From the NCBI RefSeq assembly GCF_000239815.1, contig NZ_CAFK01000045.1, positions 1-64,000 on the forward strand: a stretch of DNA of 64,000 nucleotides. Reading direction: 5' to 3'. The position numbers and the translations under genes were made by a program. A model generated the notes under the pieces. The model saw only the letters and a list, made by a program, of their open reading frames with translations, was not told where the DNA came from and did not search any database. Source of the DNA: Bradyrhizobium sp. STM 3843. GTDB taxonomy: Bacteria > Pseudomonadota > Alphaproteobacteria > Rhizobiales > Xanthobacteraceae. Position 1 is the stretch's first letter. Each line of letters begins with the position of its first letter. This document shows, piece after piece, positions 4,403 to 12,654 of the stretch.

Positions 4403-5320
4403 ATGGACCTGCACCAGCTTCGCTGCTTCATCGCCGCTGCCGAGGAGCTGCATTTCGGCAAGGCGGCGCAACGCCTGCAGATGCTGCCGTCCGCCCTCGG
4501 CCGCCACATCAAGCTGCTGGAGGAGGATCTGGCGACCCAGCTGTTCGCCCGGACGACCCGTGCGGTGTCGCTGACGGAGCAAGGCACGGCGCTGCTGCGG
4601 GACGCCCGCGCGATCCTGTCCCGGGTCGAAACGGTCGAGCAGAGCTTCCGCCGCCGCGCCCGGGCCGGCACGGTTCGCCGCCTGCGGGTCGGCGCGATCG
4701 ACAGCGCCGCGGCCGGCCTGCTGCCGCCCCTCCTGCACGACTTCCGCGCCCGACATCCCGAGATCGCGGTGCAGCTTTCCGAAGAGAAGACGATCCGGCT
4801 GCTGCCCAAGATCCTCTCCGGCGCGCTCGATCTCGCCTTCGTGCGGCCGCCGGAGCGGACCGACAAGCGGCTCGAATTTCGCCCCCTGGTGGACGAGACC
4901 GCTGTCGTCGCGCTGCCGCAGCGGCACGCGCTGGCCGCACGCAAGTTCATTTCGTTGGGCGAGATCGCCGACCAGCCGTTGATCGTGCCGGACCGCCGTT
5001 CGCGGCCGCACAGCCACGACCTGACCATGAAGCTGTTCGAGCAGGCCGGGCTGACGCCTGAGGTGGCCCAGCTCGCCGACGAGAAGCAGACCATCGTCCA
5101 CCTGGTCGCGGCCCGGCTCGGAGTTGCGATCGTACCGCGCTGGACCTCACGGCTGGCGATATCGGGCGTGCGCTTCGTACCGCTCAGGCTGAAGCGCGGC
5201 AGCAGCGTCGGACGGCTGCCGCTGGCCGCCGCCTGGCTGCGCGGCTCGCGCGATCCCGCGCGCGACGCCATGCTTTCCATTCTCGAGGCCAGGCTCCCCA
5301 ATTACGCGCGCGGCGCGTGA
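4403..5320 (+). CDS. LysR-family transcriptional regulator
   Basis: DNA-binding regulator of 305 residues. The N-terminal winged helix-turn-helix begins MDLHQLRCFIAAAEELHFGK and continues AAQRLQMLPSALGRHIKLLE. The effector-binding domain follows from about residue 90, with RLRVGAIDSAAAGLLPPLL. An in-frame ATG 54 bases upstream would add residues outside the family pattern, so 4403 was chosen. It is divergent from the tartrate transporter/dehydrogenase operon. By the usual LysR arrangement it probably controls that operon in response to tartrate or a related acid. The target is inferred. Confidence 0.92.
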   Translation: MDLHQLRCFIAAAEELHFGKAAQRLQMLPSALGRHIKLLEEDLATQLFARTTRAVSLTEQGTALLRDARAILSRVETVEQSFRRRARAGTVRRLRVGAIDSAAAGLLPPLLHDFRARHPEIAVQLSEEKTIRLLPKILSGALDLAFVRPPERTDKRLEFRPLVDETAVVALPQRHALAARKFISLGEIADQPLIVPDRRSRPHSHDLTMKLFEQAGLTPEVAQLADEKQTIVHLVAARLGVAIVPRWTSRLAISGVRFVPLRLKRGSSVGRLPLAAAWLRGSRDPARDAMLSILEARLPNYARGA

Positions 5321-5945
5321 ACGTGAGGACCCCTCCGATTACGGCAACATCGTAGGCGGCACCACGCTGGTGGCGCTGCTGAACCACAGCCAGGTCGCCG
5401 CCGAGCTTGAGGGCGGCGGTGCGTCATGACGTCACATTTGGCGGCGCGCGGCAGAGCGCATGCCGGCATCTGCCCTACCCTGCCCCGATTGTTACAATTG
5501 CTACTATTACAGCCGTAGCGGATTGTATTGCAGATGTAGCGCCACGTTCCTTCCGGGCGGCGAGGAAGCGACCTAGGATGGACCGATCCTCCGGCAGGAC
5601 GAGCTTAGCTCGGACGGCCGACACGAAATGCATGCTTCAACAGCAGGTGATGTCCCACTTGTGAAGTGAGGGGCTTGACGCGAGCCACCTAGCTCGTTCC
5701 ACTGGTTCCAGCTACCGGTGCGGAGCCCGGCTTCGCCGACCCTTTTGTGAACTAATTATTATGAACTATGTCGACGTCGCTCAATACTCACCTAGCAGAT
5801 GTCGACGGGATGCCGGGCCGGTCAAGCAACTCCTGCCCCCTCTTGCGATATGCCAAGAGGCGGACACATGCGAGGTCATGGTAAAGCGTAACATGTTACC
5901 CGGCTGGATGAAGACTGTCACTCGGCAAGCTGTCGGTATGCTCGA
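5321..5945. other. Intergenic region, no supported gene
   Basis: About 620 bases without a convincing gene. Near its start (about 5326-5429) one frame reads a peptide containing GGTTLVALLNHSQVAAEL before a stop, which looks protein-like but has no start or flanking match and may be a gene remnant. The rest has short open frames without ribosome binding sites. Its last part should contain the promoter of the cyclase gene. Confidence 0.45.
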
Positions 5946-7793
5946 ATGACCGGGGCAACGATGCCGCTTCTCGGGTCAGCACAACACGAGGCAAGTGCGC
6001 CCTCTGAAGTTCTGTTTCGGGCGCGCGGTGACGCCGCTCGAACCGGTCGGCGGCTTGCGGCCGTCGCGTTTCTCGACATCGTGGGCTACACGCTGCTGAT
6101 GGCGCGCGATGAAAGTCGCACACACGATCGCTGGATGAAGATCCTGAATGAGATCGTTCGGCCGCGCACCACGGATTACCGTGGCCGGATCGTCAAGTTC
6201 ACCGGTGACGGCCTGCTTGCCGAGTTTTCCAGCGTCCTCGACGCGGTCGAATGGGCGCAGGATGTTCAACGCACGGTGCCGTCGGCTCAGGTCGACGAGG
6301 GCGAGCAGACCCCGACCATCGCACTGCGGATTGCCATCAATCTCGGCGACATTATCGCAACCGAGTTCGACATCTTCGGGCACGGCGTCAATGTCGCAGC
6401 GCGCCTCCAGGAGCACGCCGAGCCAGGCGGCGTCCTGCTCTCCGAATCGGTCTACGAGGTCGTGCGCGGCACGGTGGGGAAGCTCGCACGCGACATCGGC
6501 TATCTTCAGCTCAAGAATGTCGAAAAGCCGGTGCGGGCCTATGCCCTGACGACCGGTGTTCCGGTCGCAGTGGCACCCACCGCGGCTCACCGCGAGCGCC
6601 TGCCCTCGATCGCCGTGCTCCCGCTCCAGAATCTGGGTGCCGATCCGGCCGACGACTATTTTGCCGACGGGATCGTCGAAGACATCATTGTGTCTCTCGC
6701 CGGACTGCGCGAACTCTTCGTCATCTCGCGCGCCTCGACAATCAAATATCGCGATCATCCGCCCGATCCGGCCGAGGTCGGGCGCGCGCTCGGCGCACGC
6801 TACGTCGTGTTTGGCACCGTTCGCAGGTCCCTCCGACTGGTGCGCGTGTCAACGCAGGCGTGCGATTCCCAAAGCGGAGAAATCCTTTGGGCCGACGCGG
6901 TCGAAGTCGCTCCCGGCGAACTATTTGATCTCCAGGACGAGATCGTTCGGAAGATCGTCGTCGGCATTGCTCCCAATGTCCGCAAGACGGAGCTGCGCGA
7001 GGCGCTCCGGAAGCGCCCCGACAGTTTCACGGCCTATGACTACACGCTGCGGGCGATTCAGCTCATCAACAGCCTCGACAAGCATATCTTTCTGCAGGCC
7101 CGCGACTTTCTGAACCGGGCGATGGCGGAAGATCCGAACTTCGCCATGCCTGTCGCCTGGGCGGCACGCTGGCATAGTCTCTATGTCGGTCAGGGCTGGT
7201 CCACCAACCCGAGCGAGGATGCGATCCGTGCCATCGAGTTCGCCTCGAGGGCAATCGAGCTCGATGGTCAGAACGCGCTGGCACTGGCGACCTTCGGTCA
7301 CCTGAAGTCGTTTCTGTTGCACGAATATGACGGCGCGTTGATCTATTTCGACCGTGCGCTTTCGGCATGTCCCAACCACTCGCTGGCGTGGCTGCTCTCC
7401 AGCGCCACGTTGAGTTACATCGGGGATGGCGAGCAGGCCGTCAGCAGAGCCGAGCATGCCTTGCGGCTGTCGCCTTTCGATCAGAGCCTATTCAACTACT
7501 ACATGTTTCTCAATCTCGCCTACTACGCCAAAGGTGATTATGAGAGCGCGGTGAAGTGGGGCCGGATGTCGGCCAGCGAGAACGCTCTCTACACGGCAAA
7601 CCACAGGATATTGATCGCAGGCCTGGCGGCTCTGGGACGTCTCGATGAAGCTCACGAAGTCGCCGACAGGATGATGAAGCTCGAGCCCGATTTCCGGTTG
7701 GAATTTTACGAGCGAACTCGGCAGCCGTTCCGGCACCCGGAGCTTCGCGCGCATTACATGACCCATTTGAGGTTGGCCGGCCTTCCGGAATGA
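5946..7793 (+). CDS. Class III adenylate/guanylate cyclase with TolB-like region and TPR repeats
   Basis: Soluble signalling protein of 615 residues. A class III nucleotide cyclase domain occupies about residues 36-190. Both metal-binding aspartates are present, in FLDIVGYTLL (Asp44) and FTGDGLLAEF (Asp88), so it could make cAMP from ATP. A TolB-N-like segment follows (about 220-350, with IAVLPLQNLG and DYFADGIVEDI), then TPR-like helices to the C-terminus. This architecture is common in rhizobia. There is no transmembrane segment, so it is expected to act in the cytoplasm. A second ATG 15 bases downstream is an alternative start. It is the first of three same-strand genes, with a PAP2-type protein and an S8 peptidase behind it; no link between them is proven. 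Confidence 0.9.
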   Translation: MTGATMPLLGSAQHEASAPSEVLFRARGDAARTGRRLAAVAFLDIVGYTLLMARDESRTHDRWMKILNEIVRPRTTDYRGRIVKFTGDGLLAEFSSVLDAVEWAQDVQRTVPSAQVDEGEQTPTIALRIAINLGDIIATEFDIFGHGVNVAARLQEHAEPGGVLLSESVYEVVRGTVGKLARDIGYLQLKNVEKPVRAYALTTGVPVAVAPTAAHRERLPSIAVLPLQNLGADPADDYFADGIVEDIIVSLAGLRELFVISRASTIKYRDHPPDPAEVGRALGARYVVFGTVRRSLRLVRVSTQACDSQSGEILWADAVEVAPGELFDLQDEIVRKIVVGIAPNVRKTELREALRKRPDSFTAYDYTLRAIQLINSLDKHIFLQARDFLNRAMAEDPNFAMPVAWAARWHSLYVGQGWSTNPSEDAIRAIEFASRAIELDGQNALALATFGHLKSFLLHEYDGALIYFDRALSACPNHSLAWLLSSATLSYIGDGEQAVSRAEHALRLSPFDQSLFNYYMFLNLAYYAKGDYESAVKWGRMSASENALYTANHRILIAGLAALGRLDEAHEVADRMMKLEPDFRLEFYERTRQPFRHPELRAHYMTHLRLAGLPE

Positions 7794-7849
7794 CCCCCGG
7801 AAGCATGCCGGCCGGGGGACGCAGGACATTAGTCAAGAGGAGGATTGCC

Positions 7850-8785
7850 ATGAGTGGTTTCGGTCTCGCCGACGGAGCAGATGGTGCAGACGGAGCAGAT
7901 GGGGCCGATGGCGCGGCACCGTCCGGAACGTTCACGGCCAGCACTTCACCATTGATCCGGCCCATCGGCATCTCGCCTGCCCTCGAGAAGCGCCCCGAGG
8001 AGGACTGGTTCAGGGGCACGCGATGGCCGCCCTTCGATGTGTCGGCCGGCTTCCCTTTCACAACGAGCAAGAGCTTCCCCGACAGCGCTTGGGACTCGTA
8101 TCATTTCTCGATCGTCGTGCTCGGCGAGTTTGTCAAACAGCCGGGCTGGGACGCGATCGACCTGCAGGCCGTCGCGCCCATTCCGACGGGCGCTGGACTG
8201 AAGGCCGAACTTGATGAGCTGCAGGAGCTCATCGACTACCGGCCTGGCGTCATGGCTGAGGCGCTCGCTCAGGTCAGCAAGATCGACGCTTACTTCAGCG
8301 GCATGCTGATGTTCAACAAATCATCGCGTCCTGCCACCTACCGCCTGATCCAATGTGCGCTGCACGTCGCGCAGTTCTTGGCCATGCACTACAAGTTCAA
8401 TCCCGGCCTGCAAGCCGGCTCAGGAACGGCCATTCCTCCGCGGCCACGGCCGTCTCAACTCTCGCTGGCATTGATGCCGCCGATCGCGGTCCCGGGGCAC
8501 GCTTCATACCCGAGCGGACACGCCACCGAGGCGTATATGCTGGCAACCGTGCTTACCCCGATAATGCCGCAGCCGGCATCCACGCCGATCGATCCCGCGG
8601 ATCCCGAGAGCACACCGCTGCGGCGTCTTGCACAGAGGATCGCACGCAACCGCGAAGTGCTCGGGCTCCACTATCCGTCGGACAGCAAGGCCGGCAAGCA
8701 TCTCGGGGAGACTGCAGCACCCCTTCTGGCTGGATGCCCAAGTGCGGCCAAGCTCATTGCAGCCGCGGAGCTGGAATGGAGCTGA
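7850..8785 (+). CDS. PAP2/vanadium-dependent haloperoxidase superfamily protein with DGA repeat
   Basis: Product of 311 residues. The C-terminal half has the hallmarks of the PAP2/haloperoxidase fold: SYPSGHATEAY, with Ser222-Gly223-His224, and RNREVLGLHYPSD, with Arg268 and His274 at the Arg-x5-His spacing of the vanadate/phosphate pocket. The first motif (Lys-x6-Arg-Pro) is not clear: a Lys near 182 and Arg-Pro pairs near 198-201 are present with different spacing. Residues 8-22 are five DGA triplets. No signal peptide or obvious membrane helix is seen, unlike most PAP2 phosphatases, which favours a soluble haloperoxidase-like enzyme. The start at 7850 follows AAGAGGAGG. It lies 56 bases after the cyclase gene. 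Phosphatase versus peroxidase activity cannot be told. Confidence 0.75.
   Translation: MSGFGLADGADGADGADGADGAAPSGTFTASTSPLIRPIGISPALEKRPEEDWFRGTRWPPFDVSAGFPFTTSKSFPDSAWDSYHFSIVVLGEFVKQPGWDAIDLQAVAPIPTGAGLKAELDELQELIDYRPGVMAEALAQVSKIDAYFSGMLMFNKSSRPATYRLIQCALHVAQFLAMHYKFNPGLQAGSGTAIPPRPRPSQLSLALMPPIAVPGHASYPSGHATEAYMLATVLTPIMPQPASTPIDPADPESTPLRRLAQRIARNREVLGLHYPSDSKAGKHLGETAAPLLAGCPSAAKLIAAAELEWS
7871..7915 (+). repeat. Five tandem 9-bp units encoding Asp-Gly-Ala
   Basis: Units begin at 7871, 7880, 7889, 7898 and 7907. Units 1 and 3 are identical (gacggagca) and the rest vary mostly at third positions. The array lies inside the PAP2-type gene and keeps the reading frame, so changes in copy number would lengthen or shorten the N-terminal DGA tract without a frameshift. 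Confidence 0.85.
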
Positions 8786-8866
8786 GACGTCCTGCGCCGG
8801 GCTTGCTCGGATGGCAAGGCAAGCTCGGCGCAACCGAGGTGGATTATTTTTTCAGGAGCCCATCCA

Positions 8867-10276
8867 ATGATCCGGCAATTGATCGTCGTGCAAGGCGACG
8901 AGTCCGTCGTCGCGGACAGAGATGCGTCCAACCCCAAGTCCCCGCGGCGCATCACAATCGAGACGCAGCTGCGCGAACTGCTGGGCGGCGACAGCGGACA
9001 ATGGCAGGTGCTGAACCTCCCGTCTGACGACTGGCAGATCCGCCTCGCCGAACGAATTCCGGAGCCCTTCCGCCCTCCGGGCGAAGAGATCGTCGCCATG
9101 GGGCTGGCCGACCGCACAGACGTCGAGCAGTTCCGGCGCTCCGTCGAGAACGCGAACAAGCTTGCGGCGGAGCGAGGCAAGCTCCAGCCGTTCAAGGCTG
9201 TCGGCGCCGATATCGCACTGTCCCACTCCGAGTATTTCTGTCCCGTCAATGCCGATCAGCTTTTGTTCGGCAACCGGGATCATGCCAGACGAATGACGGG
9301 CGCCGACGTGCTCAGAGCGCAAGGTTTGACCGGACAAGGCGTCAACGTGGTCCTCATCGACCAGGGGTTCGACGCGGCGAACGTCAAGAACTTCGGCGGC
9401 GGCCTTGCCAATGGCGATATCGAACCCGGCACGACCAAGCGTGGTCATGGACCGATGATGGTTCGCAACATTGCCGACGCTGCGCCAGATGCCACGTTCT
9501 ACGACGTTCCACTGCTTCCGGCGCGCATTCGCGACATCACGGGATTCATCAGCACCGCGCTTCACGTGTTCCAGCGCCTCGATGCGCTCATCCGGCACCT
9601 GCGCCAGCTTCCCGCTCCGCAATGGAAGGGGCCCTGGGTGCTCGTGAACGGATGGTCGATTTTCGATCGTTCCAGCGAGCATCCGCTCGGTGACTACACC
9701 GAGCGGCCCGATCATCCGCTCAACACGATGATAGGAACGATCGCAGCAACCGCCGACACCGTATTCGCTGCCGGCAATTGCGGCCAGTTCTGCCCCGATC
9801 GCCGCTGCGGGAAGTCGGATGTGGGACCGGGCACAAGCATCTTCGGCGCCAATTCGCATCCGGACGTTCTGACGGTCGGAGCCGTCAGAACCGACGCACG
9901 GTGGATAGGCAGTTCATCGCAGGGGCCGGGCCAACGTCTGCTCTCAATTCAGAAGCCCGACCTGTGCGCGCCCAGCTATTTCGACGAGGTCGGCGCTGAT
10001 GCCTTCGCCGGCAACGTCGACGGCGCGTTCGTGAGCAACGAGGGCTCACCTTACATTGCGAACACGGGAACGTCGGCCGCATGCGGAATGACCGCAGGCA
10101 TTATCGCCGCCATCCGCAGCGGATACGATCAAACCGCGGCCTCACCCGCCCAATTGCGCCAATTCATGATCGACCGCGCTCGCAAGGTGGAGGGCCCAGC
10201 CTGGAATGGCCAGCTCGGTCATGGCATCATCGATGCCGCCGGCGTATTGACTGCCCTGAAAGAGGCGAACGCATAA
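8867..10276 (+). CDS. S8 (subtilisin-like) serine peptidase, apparently cytoplasmic
   Basis: Peptidase of 469 residues with a complete S8 triad: Asp165 in VVLIDQGFD, His194 in KRGHGPMM and Ser403 in NTGTSAACGMTAG. The oxyanion Asn is probably Asn304 in AAGNCG. About 150 residues precede the catalytic domain and match neither a secretion signal nor a recognised inhibitor pro-domain; the N-terminus MIRQLIVVQGDE is not a signal peptide. Secreted subtilases normally carry one, so this enzyme probably stays in the cell or is delivered in another way. The start follows CAGGAG. It is 81 bases after the PAP2-type gene and convergent with the AraC gene. The substrate is unknown; the neighbour with the repetitive N-terminus is a candidate only by position. 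Confidence 0.88.
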   Translation: MIRQLIVVQGDESVVADRDASNPKSPRRITIETQLRELLGGDSGQWQVLNLPSDDWQIRLAERIPEPFRPPGEEIVAMGLADRTDVEQFRRSVENANKLAAERGKLQPFKAVGADIALSHSEYFCPVNADQLLFGNRDHARRMTGADVLRAQGLTGQGVNVVLIDQGFDAANVKNFGGGLANGDIEPGTTKRGHGPMMVRNIADAAPDATFYDVPLLPARIRDITGFISTALHVFQRLDALIRHLRQLPAPQWKGPWVLVNGWSIFDRSSEHPLGDYTERPDHPLNTMIGTIAATADTVFAAGNCGQFCPDRRCGKSDVGPGTSIFGANSHPDVLTVGAVRTDARWIGSSSQGPGQRLLSIQKPDLCAPSYFDEVGADAFAGNVDGAFVSNEGSPYIANTGTSAACGMTAGIIAAIRSGYDQTAASPAQLRQFMIDRARKVEGPAWNGQLGHGIIDAAGVLTALKEANA

Positions 10277-10309: not shown

Positions 10310-11287
10310 TCACGGCCAGTCGGCGAAATCGAGCGACGGCCGCAGCCGTCCGCTGCGCGCCCGCGCCGCCATGTTGCGGCGCCACGCGCCCGGCGCCTCG
10401 CCGGTGTGCTTGGTGAAGAAGCGGCTGAAATAGGCGGTGTCCTTGAAGCCGAGCGCAAAGGCGATCTGCTTGACGGTCGCACTGCTGCTCTCGAGCCGTC
10501 GCGCCGCCTCCTGCAGGATGCGCTGCTGGATCAGCGCGCTCGGCGAGCGCTGCAAGGCGCGGCTGCACAGCGAATGCAGCCGGTCCGAGGTGACGCCGAG
10601 CAGCTGCGCATAATCGGCGACACGCAATTGCTGTTGGTAACGCTCCTCCACCAGCCTGCGAAAGCGGCCGAGGATGTCGGCGCTGTTGCCCGGTGCGGCG
10701 CCATCGGCCGTCTCGGCAAACAGCCGCCAGAAGCGCAGCACGCAAAGCGAGAGCTCCGCTGACAGGATCGAGGCGCTGGCGCCGCGCGCCGGCGCAGCCA
10801 GCTCGGCCGCGATCGACGCGATCGAGCGCGCAAGTGCCGCGGCCAGATCCGCTTCGACCGGAAAGGCGAGCATGCCGGTCACGCCGGCGAGGTCCAGATA
10901 GGCTGCTTCCGCCGAAGGCGGCAAATAGCGGTGCCAACTATCCGCGCGCAGCCGCAACAGATGCGCGCGCGCGCCGGCCGCGATTTCGAGCTGGTCGGCG
11001 CTTCCAGCCGGCAACCAGACCAGCGACGGCCCGGACCATGCGGTGACCTCGCCGTCCCCATGTGCCGCCGCCGCGCCGGAGGTCAGCGATATCAGGTGGA
11101 TGCAGGGTCGTACCGCCAGCGAATTCAGGGCCCATTGCCGCGCGACGAAATGCGAGCCGACCACCTCGGCACCGACGGGATGAGCTGCATCGGGTGCAGG
11201 CACGGGCCCGGCGCTCCGGCTCCCCGCCAGCGCGGGACGCCGGGACCGGGCGCCAGATGAGTGCATCTTTTCGCCGGATCCGTCCAT
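10310..11287 (-). CDS. AraC-family transcriptional regulator
   Basis: Regulator of about 325 residues. The C-terminal 100 residues form the double helix-turn-helix, with VKQIAFALGFKDTAYFSRFF as the second recognition unit and KHTGEAPGAWRR after it. The N-terminal part is a cupin-like ligand domain (SGPSLVWLPAGSADQLEI). The frame is open further upstream, but that part lacks family features and overlaps the promoter of the divergent ABC operon. ATG at 11287 or at 11266 is more likely. Divergent placement suggests control of the ABC transporter/aldehyde dehydrogenase operon. The inducer may be an aromatic aldehyde or acid; this is inference. Confidence 0.88.
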   Translation of the reverse strand: MDGSGEKMHSSGARSRRPALAGSRSAGPVPAPDAAHPVGAEVVGSHFVARQWALNSLAVRPCIHLISLTSGAAAAHGDGEVTAWSGPSLVWLPAGSADQLEIAAGARAHLLRLRADSWHRYLPPSAEAAYLDLAGVTGMLAFPVEADLAAALARSIASIAAELAAPARGASASILSAELSLCVLRFWRLFAETADGAAPGNSADILGRFRRLVEERYQQQLRVADYAQLLGVTSDRLHSLCSRALQRSPSALIQQRILQEAARRLESSSATVKQIAFALGFKDTAYFSRFFTKHTGEAPGAWRRNMAARARSGRLRPSLDFADWP

Positions 11288-11291
11288 TGCG

Positions 11292-11318
11292 CCAAGGAAC
11301 CCGACAGTGCTTCCTTGG
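11292..11318. promoter_or_regulatory. Perfect inverted repeat in the AraC/ABC divergent promoter
   Basis: Arms ccaaggaa (11292-11299) and ttccttgg (11311-11318) are separated by 11 bases. The site lies a few bases upstream of the AraC start and about 115 bases upstream of the binding-protein start, a good position for an operator serving one or both. Its regulator is not known. Confidence 0.5.
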
Positions 11319-11431
11319 TCAAGCCCGGACAGCCGCAAACAACAATCGCGGACAAAAAGCCCGGGCCAAGAGGAAACGTCACATCGGCACGCCGCCGAAC
11401 AATCCGGCGCGCCCCAGGGAGGAGGCTCGAC

Positions 11432-12654
11432 ATGGTTTCGACACAGCGTCGGACATGGCTGCGCATCGCCAGCCTGACAGTATTGGCCGCGGCACTGGGG
11501 GCCTTTGCGTCCCCTGCCGCCGCGCAGGACAAGATCCGCATCGGCTATGCGATCTCGAAAACCGGACCGTATGCCGGCGGCGCGGGGATCACGACCTTGC
11601 CCAACTATCAGCTCTGGGTGAAGGACGTGAACGCGGCGGGCGGAATCAAGCTCGGCGACAAGCGGCTGCCGATCGAGGTCGTCGAGTATGACGACCGCAG
11701 CTCGTCGGAAGAGGCGGTGAAGGCGATTGAACGCCTCGCCAATCAGGACAAGGTCGATTTCATTCTGCCGCCGTGGGGCACCGGCCTCAATCTCGCGGTC
11801 GGCCCGACCTTGAACCGGCTCGGCTACCCGCATCTCGCGGTCACCTCGGTGACCGACAAGGCGCCTGAGCTCGCCAAGCGCTGGGCCAATGCCAGCTTCT
11901 GGCTCGGCACCTCGGCGCAGATCTCGCAAGGGCTGGCCGATCTGCTCGGCAAACTGAAAAGCGAGGGCAAGATCGGCGGCACCGTCGCCATGGTCAGCGT
12001 GGCCGACCAGTTCGGCATCGAGCTCGCCGCCGCCGGCCGCGAGGCTTTCAAGAAGGCCGGTCTGACCGTCGCCTATGACAAGACCTACCCGCTCGGCTCG
12101 CAGGACATCCAGCCGCTGCTCAAGGATGCGATCGCCTCCAATGCCGACACCTTCATCGCCTTCAGCTATCCGCCGGATACGCTGGCGCTGACCGAGCAGG
12201 CGCAGTCTTTTAGAAATTCAATCCGAAGGTGTTCTATGTCGGCGTCGGCACCGCGTTTCCGCTGTTCAAGGCCAAGTTCGGCGGCAACGCCGACGGCGTG
12301 CTCGGGATCGGCGGCTGGAATGCGGAGTCGCCGCCGCTGAAGGACTATCTCGCCCGCCACAAGGCCGCGACCGGCCAGGAGCCGGATCGCTGGGCCAGCC
12401 CGATCACCTATGCGAGCCTCGAGGTGCTGCAGCAGGCGATCGAGAAGGTCGGCAAGGTCGACCGCACCGCGATTGCCAAGGAAATCCGCGACGGCACGTT
12501 CGAGACGATCATCGGCAAGGTGAAGCTGAAGGACGGGCTGTTGCAGGAGGTCTGGGCGGTCGGCCAATGGCAGAACGGCGAGTTCTATGGGCTCGCGCCG
12601 GCGACGCTGGCGGGCGCACGCCCGGCCGTCGTGCCGAAGCCCGAGTGGAAGTAG
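11432..12654 (+). pseudogene. ABC transporter substrate-binding protein, broken by a frameshift
   Basis: Periplasmic binding protein of the branched-chain amino acid (LivJ/HAAT) family. The start follows GGGAGGAGG and encodes a clear signal peptide (RIASLTVLAAALGAF, cleavage near SPAAAQD). The mature part begins DKIRIGYAISKTGPYAGGAG. The frame is coherent to about 12208, then runs out of register: the expected continuation KFNPKVFYVGVGTAF through VVPKPEWK is read in another frame from 12214 to 12654, with TAG at 12211 in that frame. A two-base insertion (tcttttagaaa against an expected tctttgaaa) would explain it. Either the gene is disrupted or the sequence has an error. Without the shift the protein would be about 407 residues, normal for the family. 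It is first in the ABC operon. Confidence 0.85.

Follow-up and report, generated by a model that had tools for sequence, protein, structure and literature searches.

Organization of the locus

The window, a contig stretch of 64,000 nucleotides from the 8.4-megabase genome of Bradyrhizobium sp. STM 3843, harbors three adjacent genes on the forward strand, which almost certainly represent one copy of a widespread proteobacterial module. Gene 1 (positions 5946–7793) encodes a regulator of 615 residues, in which Pfam, a structure match, catalytic residues and an AlphaFold2 (AF2) model identify a class III nucleotidyl cyclase domain, followed by a middle domain and tetratricopeptide repeats (TPR). 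Gene 2 (7850–8785) encodes a PAP2 protein of 311 residues, which lacks a leader, is similar to class A acid phosphatases by Pfam, profile and Foldseek comparison and by its residues, and starts with a strictly periodic tail. Gene 3 (8867–10276) encodes an S8 family peptidase of 469 residues without evident signal peptide. The open reading frames confirm the row of three same-strand genes described in an earlier account based on the sequence alone, hereafter the original prediction.

The spacers between the genes are short, 56 bases between genes 1 and 2 and 81 bases between genes 2 and 3. A longer in-frame open reading frame of gene 2 exists from position 7790; the ATG at 7850 is preceded by AGGAGG (7838–7843), a likely ribosome-binding site, and the ATG of gene 3 at 8867 by a similar candidate, AGGAG (8854–8858). 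Since, in addition to the short spacers and these purine-rich sites, a simple scan revealed no terminator-like site between the three genes, they are likely to form an operon. A promoter scan found two candidates, with 1.0 (standard deviation 1.1) expected. The G+C content is about 0.61–0.64 across the three genes, compared with 0.70 (4501–5500) and 0.69 (10501–11500) outside.

Recurrence of the gene set

Among 198 genomes of the family that were searched first, 22 had a match; in 10 of the other 21 loci, the PAP gene had a homologue of the regulator, with 28–43% identity, as its neighbour. Larger samples comprised 398 genomes of the phylum, 385 of the class, 397 of the order and 146 of the genus. 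Homologues of gene 2 were present in 55 of the 146 genomes of the genus at an E-value of 1e-45 or better; 11 of the 385 genomes of the class, at 1e-35, and 25 of the 397 genomes of the order gave a match. From a species genome collection with at least 453 relatives, 80 named loci were kept, which belong to Bradyrhizobium, Microvirga, Methylobacterium, Tardiphaga, Polaromonas, Variovorax, Hydrogenophaga, Caballeronia and others, including one member of the Chromatiales. Phage records gave one weak match.

For comparison, loci were drawn from the strongest matches (75 stretches, the 80 named loci, 13 regions of 35 plasmid records and 40 stretches). Removal of 12 duplicates and of five loci in which the PAP match was weak or missing reduced 209 loci, designated by L numbers, to 192 distinct PAP proteins. 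This set contains near relatives, among them several Phaeobacter, and one secreted PAP2 protein that is not part of a module (L025). The PAP profiles took in columns of the tail, and the profiles for protease and regulator were made from the loci themselves.

In 184 of the 192 loci, the PAP gene has a TPR regulator no more than 900 bases away, on the same strand in 166 and divergently in 18, and about 70% of these regulators are cyclases. A predicted peptidase is adjacent in 178 loci; five loci have none and nine end with the contig. The three families placed together in the original prediction are thus neighbours in many genomes. On plasmids of Phaeobacter inhibens, P. gallaeciensis and P. 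piscinae (L181, L182, L187–L191), which belong to rep_cluster_636 and are mostly typed as conjugative, the module is present as well. The annotated plasmid records that were viewed label its parts with generic family names or as hypothetical protein. The module is portable and patchy in its distribution, its parts are exchangeable, and it is sometimes plasmid-borne.

Gene 2 is an acid phosphatase-like protein

Gene 2 matches the PAP2 family (PF01569) with an E-value of 5e-5 and 23.5 bits, under the Pfam cut-off of 27.2; its homologues in L023 and L024 reach 33.3 and 27.0 bits, respectively. A profile of nine members finds the class A acid phosphatase 7f17 as its best match (4e-22), followed more weakly by bromoperoxidases (1qi9, 4.8e-12). 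The AF2 model of gene 2 has a mean predicted local distance difference test (pLDDT) score of 73.0, and 129 of its 311 residues score at least 90. A Foldseek search with this model again returns 7f17 as the best match (TMt 0.71), with acid phosphatases filling the first 29 places. A vanadium haloperoxidase is not favoured by the fold, the first such match having an E-value of 0.16 and a TMq of 0.20.

Class A acid phosphatases are characterized by the signature K...RP, PSGH and R-x5-H-x3-D. Its residues K, R, H, R, H and D are kept in all 192 homologues, and P, S and G in 185, 175 and 174, respectively; the catalytic signature of gene 2 is common to bromoperoxidases and acid phosphatases. Classical class A acid phosphatases possess a signal peptide and are secreted. 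In gene 2 the maximal hydropathy over 19 residues is 1.25, and the repeat tail stands at the N-terminus. Of the PAP2/haloperoxidase-type protein of soluble appearance that had originally been proposed, the PAP2 assignment and the soluble appearance hold, and the fold comparison favours a class A acid phosphatase over a haloperoxidase. To judge from profile and model, gene 2 resembles class A acid phosphatases without a leader more than haloperoxidases, and it would presumably be an active enzyme located in the cytosol.

A strictly periodic N-terminal tail with scrambled codons

The DGA repeat noticed in the original prediction occupies residues 7–22 of gene 2 (7868–7915) and is written in scrambled synonymous codons. 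A degenerate (DGA)3 DNA pattern occurs in the genome at three overlapping places, all of them inside this tract. Residues 7–66 are modelled with pLDDT values below 50, which fits a disordered segment.

Exact tandem repeats of nine or more residues are present in the N-terminal region of 185 of the 192 PAP proteins and are built from 70 different units, such as GGA, GGV, GGY, GNT, GNA, DGA, SEG, DSG, DF, NK, NSF, TAM, DAR, RAQ, GGNWF and GM. The period varies from 2 to 6 (period 3 in 148 of 185) and the tract length from 10 to 52 residues. In a control based on the first 141 loci, 133 of 141 PAP proteins carry such a repeat, compared with 15 of 1086 neighbouring open reading frames, which include 252 module partners, none of them with a repeat. 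The proteins without a tract of nine residues are located at contig ends (L092, L109, L115), lack the N-terminus (L093), have imperfect repeats (L084, L180) or do not belong to a module (L025). One tract (L159) belongs to a gene that is divided between two frames.

Close relatives vary in copy number. The NSF unit is present in five copies in P. piscinae, six in five P. inhibens plasmids and seven in P. gallaeciensis, with synonymous differences within P. inhibens, and the GGA tracts of four close relatives of Tardiphaga are 28, 28, 31 and 34 residues long. The Phaeobacter modules on rep_cluster_636 plasmids represent a natural series for array length. Two PAP proteins (L054, L056) contain an extra N-terminal stretch in front of an NK repeat, with NKS-like motifs leading in, and have a different S8 type as partner. 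Another (L233) starts with a GM repeat of 33 residues; within its 9-kilobase stretch no protease was detected by profile.

Adjacent units use the same codon in 1332 of 4420 cases (30.1%), compared with 42.8% predicted by the codon usage of the rest of the gene. Shuffling of codons within tracts gives 1603 same-codon cases (standard deviation 26), and none of 500 permutations was as low as observed. With one tract per unit type, the values are 34.3% observed and 44.9% expected, again with no permutation out of 500 as low. Codon sharing falls below expectation in 148 of 185 tracts of the full set and in 47 of 70 of the reduced set. For repeats in neighbouring proteins, the same codon was found in 144 of 318 cases. 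A few tracts have units identical in DNA, as in L136. Some arrays look young by eye: units are nearly identical in DNA in L174, and two-unit DNA repeats occur in L144 and L160. Judged by these codon patterns, the repeat is maintained as a peptide and avoided as DNA, which suggests that arrays may be born by expansion and subsequently scrambled by synonymous change.

Peptidases of different folds share one place

Gene 3 matches Peptidase_S8 (PF00082) with an E-value of 3e-14 and 53.5 bits (cut-off 21.8). As originally described, it has a full triad, formed by D165, H194 and S403, and no evident signal peptide, the maximal hydropathy over 19 residues being 1.11. Within its subfamily, here termed the small S8 type, the triad is kept and a hydrophobic N-terminus is missing in seven of seven members; among all 178 module peptidases, hydrophobic N-termini are found in two.

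In the 192 loci, the place of gene 3 is taken by a large S8 type in 131 cases, with five more on the opposite strand, by the small S8 type in seven and by a further S8 type in two. Peptidases of the A4 fold (A4/G1) are found in 26 loci and papain-like C39 peptidases (C39/C70) in seven. Pfam recognizes examples as Peptidase_A4 (3e-23), C39_2/C70 (2e-7, 2e-8) and S8; the place is therefore held by proteases of unrelated folds. Two large S8 proteins without Pfam match (L027, L053) were assigned by our own profile and the triad. Catalytic residues are well conserved. In the 136 large S8 proteins D is kept in 135, H in all and S in 132, and in the C39 group Cys, His and Asp are kept in seven of seven. 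Gln and Glu, which we take to be the catalytic residues of A4 peptidases, are present in 26 and 25 of 26 members, respectively.

Among the five loci without an adjacent protease, two (L052, L091) contain a gene of the window's small S8 type beyond the regulator instead of after the PAP gene. In L055, a convergent gene (5241–8192) encoding a protein of 983 residues without Pfam match is situated at the protease place, beside a PAP protein with an LGLGN-like repeat.

The regulator and its output domains

Gene 1 matches Guanylate_cyc (PF00211, 2.3e-10) as well as TPR families, and its closest solved structure is 3mr7 (9.6e-30). The AF2 model has a mean pLDDT of 83.5 and a predicted template modelling (pTM) score of 0.55. 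The cyclase domain, which forms the output domain, spans approximately residues 34–201 (6045–6548), and the C-terminal TPR part residues 355–615 (7008–7790). Class III adenylyl cyclases rely on two metal-binding Asp residues, a Lys and an Asp that recognize adenine, and an Asn and an Arg that stabilize the transition state. In gene 1 the two metal Asp residues reported in the original prediction are D44 and D88, and K84, D142, N149 and R153 are present as well. In an alignment of 174 regulators (164 on the same strand as the PAP gene, 10 divergent), the complete set D-K-D-N-R is found in 107 of the 164 same-strand regulators, and each metal Asp is kept in 122.

Other regulators combine the TPR part with a different output. 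The Phaeobacter regulator is annotated as a winged helix-turn-helix protein and is no cyclase, and some non-cyclase regulators resemble, by reading of their sequences, SARP proteins, for which Pfam finds TPR alone. Genes of the Crp type are located within 4 kilobases of 39 of 121 cyclase modules compared with 3 of 53 non-cyclase modules (Fisher p 8e-5). If L128 and L159 are scored as broken cyclases, a choice made after the result was known, the counts become 41 of 123 and 1 of 51. On a Roseibium plasmid, Crp, cyclase, PAP2 and S8 genes stand in one row. By the same test, no Crp-type gene lies within 4 kilobases of the window module.

The simplest reading is that gene 1 would switch transcription, either directly or via cyclic AMP (cAMP) and Crp. 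Of the cAMP-linked control of the peptidase that had been put forward, the cAMP link gains from the cyclase residues and the Crp-type neighbours, and direct control of the peptidase appears less probable than control of expression. Because other loci have TPR regulators that are not cyclases, cAMP would be one of several outputs.

Co-variation of the repeat unit with the neighbouring proteins

In 87 loci of the large S8 type, the distance between PAP cores closely follows that between proteases (r 0.91) and between regulators (r 0.87). The repeat unit shows no link to the protease in these loci once PAP and regulator distances are taken into account (partial r -0.155 and -0.233), with beta values of -0.30 to -0.51, and of -0.15 to +0.11 in a subset of 50 loci. 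Action of the peptidase on the DGA tail, as originally envisaged, is thus left unsupported within the large S8 type, to which this test is confined; cleavage by a protease of broad specificity may still be compatible with the missing co-variation. The mechanism of the original prediction is, in sum, partly supported: cAMP is plausible, tail cleavage unsupported.

In contrast to the protease, the TPR part of the regulator follows the unit. When units are compared position by position, the correlation of their distance is highest with the TPR part (r 0.59), followed by the middle domain (0.44), the cyclase domain (0.42), the PAP core (0.40) and the protease (0.28). The beta value of the TPR part is 0.76 and falls to 0.59 when no more than three loci are taken for each unit. 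Among about 61 independent pairs from 200 random matchings, the C-terminal half of the TPR part has a partial r of 0.49 (5–95%: 0.39–0.57). The corresponding values are -0.02 for the PAP segment adjacent to the tail, -0.12 for the output domain, -0.04 for the middle domain and 0.10 for the first TPR half. Across all close pairs, the C-terminal TPR half reaches 0.56 and the tail-adjacent PAP segment 0.19. A matching of charge or aromatic residues between tail and TPR part or between tail and protease was sought and not found, the tail charge being unrelated to the TPR charge. Recognition of the tail by the C-terminal TPR half is the leading but unproven interpretation of these correlations.

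Proposed mechanism and alternative explanations

Tentatively, the module might be built around a cytosolic phosphatase that is switched at the level of transcription and linked to a protease, and whose repeat tail the adjacent TPR regulator reads; to this view we assign a probability of about one in three (0.32). Gene 1 would be a sensor and regulator in one protein, in which the TPR part at the C-terminus is coupled to an exchangeable output domain. This domain, either an adenylyl cyclase that works via a Crp-type factor or a domain that binds DNA, would switch the operon. Gene 2 would be an acid phosphatase-like hydrolase of the cytosol, preceded by a disordered N-terminal tail of strict periodicity, and gene 3, a protease of interchangeable fold, would process or remove the gene 2 product and in this way gate its activity. 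The tail could serve as a multivalent ligand for the C-terminal TPR half, so that the regulator would sense the amount or the intactness of the tailed enzyme, and tail and TPR part would change together in a lock-and-key fashion. That gene 2 is the target of the protease and the tail a ligand of the TPR part is inferred from the genes, as are the direction in which control runs and what it is for. A somewhat more doubtful extension holds that strict self-repetition of the tail is selected and the chemistry of the unit nearly free, every lineage having a tail of its own and a TPR regulator that fits it, recombination swapping tail and TPR end together and codon scrambling freezing the array.

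Several observations weigh against this reading. The TPR part was split into halves only after the first result, and of the three unit distances tried, the position-wise one favours the TPR part most. With the composition distance the largest beta belongs to the cyclase domain (0.28), and with the same/different-unit distance the PAP core leads (0.64 vs 0.39 for the TPR part). Of the regulator segments, it is again the TPR part that tracks the PAP core best (r 0.82; middle domain 0.75, output domain 0.67), and over 14705 pairs the link to the unit differs little between TPR part (0.47), middle domain (0.45), output domain and PAP (0.39 each). The first test on 81 independent pairs gave a rho of 0.26 (p 0.019), and a comparison of changed and same units a p of 0.063. 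Ratio tests gave p values of 0.001–0.024, with the middle domain raised too in one of four, and in a further test the middle domain, the first TPR half and the PAP start were raised (p 0.001–0.01; second TPR half 0.0002). In the 10 of 18 divergent loci that were usable, the TPR part does not beat the PAP core, and columns associated with the unit are, by eye, not enriched in the helices of the TPR groove. Over 62 units, the charge of the tail is opposite to that of the PAP core (r -0.42, p 7e-4), which was one of seven segments compared. Moreover, the full cyclase set is missing in 57 of 164 same-strand regulators, and defence islands were recognized by product names in none of 11 annotated plasmid neighbourhoods, seven of them from Phaeobacter. 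Finally, in two pairs with changed tails (L042/L160, L129/L130) synonymous divergence is raised where gene 1 ends and gene 2 starts, and so it is at this junction in a pair with the same unit (L144/L153). The junction between regulator and PAP gene looks like a preferred site of exchange in these three pairs.

Recombination blocks of this kind, together with a general clock effect, confound the co-variation of tail and TPR part. That the association is mere hitch-hiking, the recombined block happening to reach from the 3' end of gene 1 into the 5' end of gene 2, is a serious prospect, if one with less than an even chance: it would account for the raised divergence on both sides of the tail, also where the unit is unchanged, and the 10 divergent loci do not discriminate. 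However, the PAP segment equally near the tail does not share the correlation of the TPR half, neither in the independent pairs nor, to the same degree, across all close pairs. The tail could alternatively be a propeptide or a multi-copy cleavage site, so that the peptidase trims, activates or destroys the phosphatase and the regulator sets expression only. This explanation, close to the idea of the original prediction, is possible though rather doubtful. It is in line with the adjacency of peptidases with conserved catalytic residues, with three protease folds at one place, which imply that proteolysis itself is conserved, with the tight tracking of protease distance by the PAP core, and with the activation of a nuclease proenzyme by the trypsin-like protease paired with it, as reported in PMC12799240. 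However, unit and protease do not co-vary in loci with the large S8 type, to which the test is confined. Less likely still is a tail that needs no specific reader, any strictly periodic sequence being able to make gene 2 oligomerise, condense or fold back on its core. Acceptance of 70 chemically unlike units, low model confidence consistent with disorder and the opposite charges of tail and core are in its favour; joint change with one TPR half of the regulator is unexplained unless by linkage, and periods of 2, 3, 4, 5 and 6 fit no single structural repeat familiar to us. The opposition of charges between tail and PAP core by itself hints at a contact between the two.

Two further explanations carry little weight. 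It is most improbable that the tail represents the core of a modified peptide of ribosomal origin, joined in one protein to the enzyme that processes it. Gene 1 is weakly similar to the NCBIfam entry TIGR04510, a 'putative peptide modification system cyclase' (23.9 bits; L028 33.0; L023 39.9), and units such as GGNWF and NK are peptide-like. However, these scores are far below the cut-off of 400, no modification enzyme was noticed in the neighbourhoods that were read, in which no dedicated search for one was made, and most units are, in our judgement, without commonly modified residues. A microsatellite without function, generated by neutral slippage, is barely conceivable. Varying copy numbers among close relatives (NSF in Phaeobacter, GGA in the Tardiphaga relatives) and the few tracts with identical or, in L174, nearly identical DNA units would fit slippage. 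However, the repeat is near universal in the PAP family and absent from its module partners, and the scrambling of codons with an intact peptide repeat, seen as reduced codon sharing in most tracts, argues against a functionless microsatellite and already contradicts this explanation.

Relation to described systems and implications

The original prediction named no described system with this gene set, and none was found in the open-licence literature searched: the families of the parts are known, and the set itself, the tail with a free unit and the exchangeable protease appear to be without description there. The nearest logic would be that of the nuclease-protease pairs of bacterial antiviral immunity reported in PMC12799240, in which an enzyme and a neighbouring protease have repeatedly been acquired as a pair. 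Adjacent genes for enzyme and protease are present here too, in 178 of 192 loci. Those pairs combine a nuclease with a trypsin-like protease, whereas the present module has a phosphatase-like protein with a periodic tail, three protease folds and a TPR regulator. With the NTP-dependent conflict systems of PMC7159879, as far as the portion consulted describes them, the module shares exchangeable parts, peptidases and nucleotide cyclases; these systems are centred on an ATPase or GTPase or are peptidase cascades, and the three genes here contain no such ATPase or GTPase. A word search found no mention of PAP2, haloperoxidase or acid phosphatase in the main text of PMC7159879, and none of PAP2 or acid phosphatase in that of a further conflict-system paper (PMC8195603).

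Gene 2 shares catalytic signature and fold with the non-specific acid phosphatases of class A (7f17, PhoN, PhoC) and differs from them in lacking a leader, carrying a repeat tail and standing in a row with a regulator and a peptidase. Gene 1 is similar to class III adenylyl cyclases with TPR repeats in its catalytic residues and its 3mr7-like cyclase domain; in the module, however, the output domain can be exchanged, and co-variation connects the TPR half to the tail of a neighbour. A relation to Pycsar was considered and dismissed, a weak profile similarity of the cyclase domain to PycC (3e-5) being the sole match and genes 2 and 3 having none in PADLOC. Among six partner proteins compared with PADLOC, five gave no match and one a weak match to IetS (0.0094).

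The near-universal exact repeat, with 70 units that vary between lineages and scrambled codons, would represent an unusual case of natural selection on repetitiveness itself. Moreover, since the arrangement is recurrent, patchy, sometimes plasmid-borne and built of exchangeable parts, the module offers a test bed for a possible reading of repeated ligands by TPR domains, the swapping of regulator outputs and the gating of enzymes by proteases.

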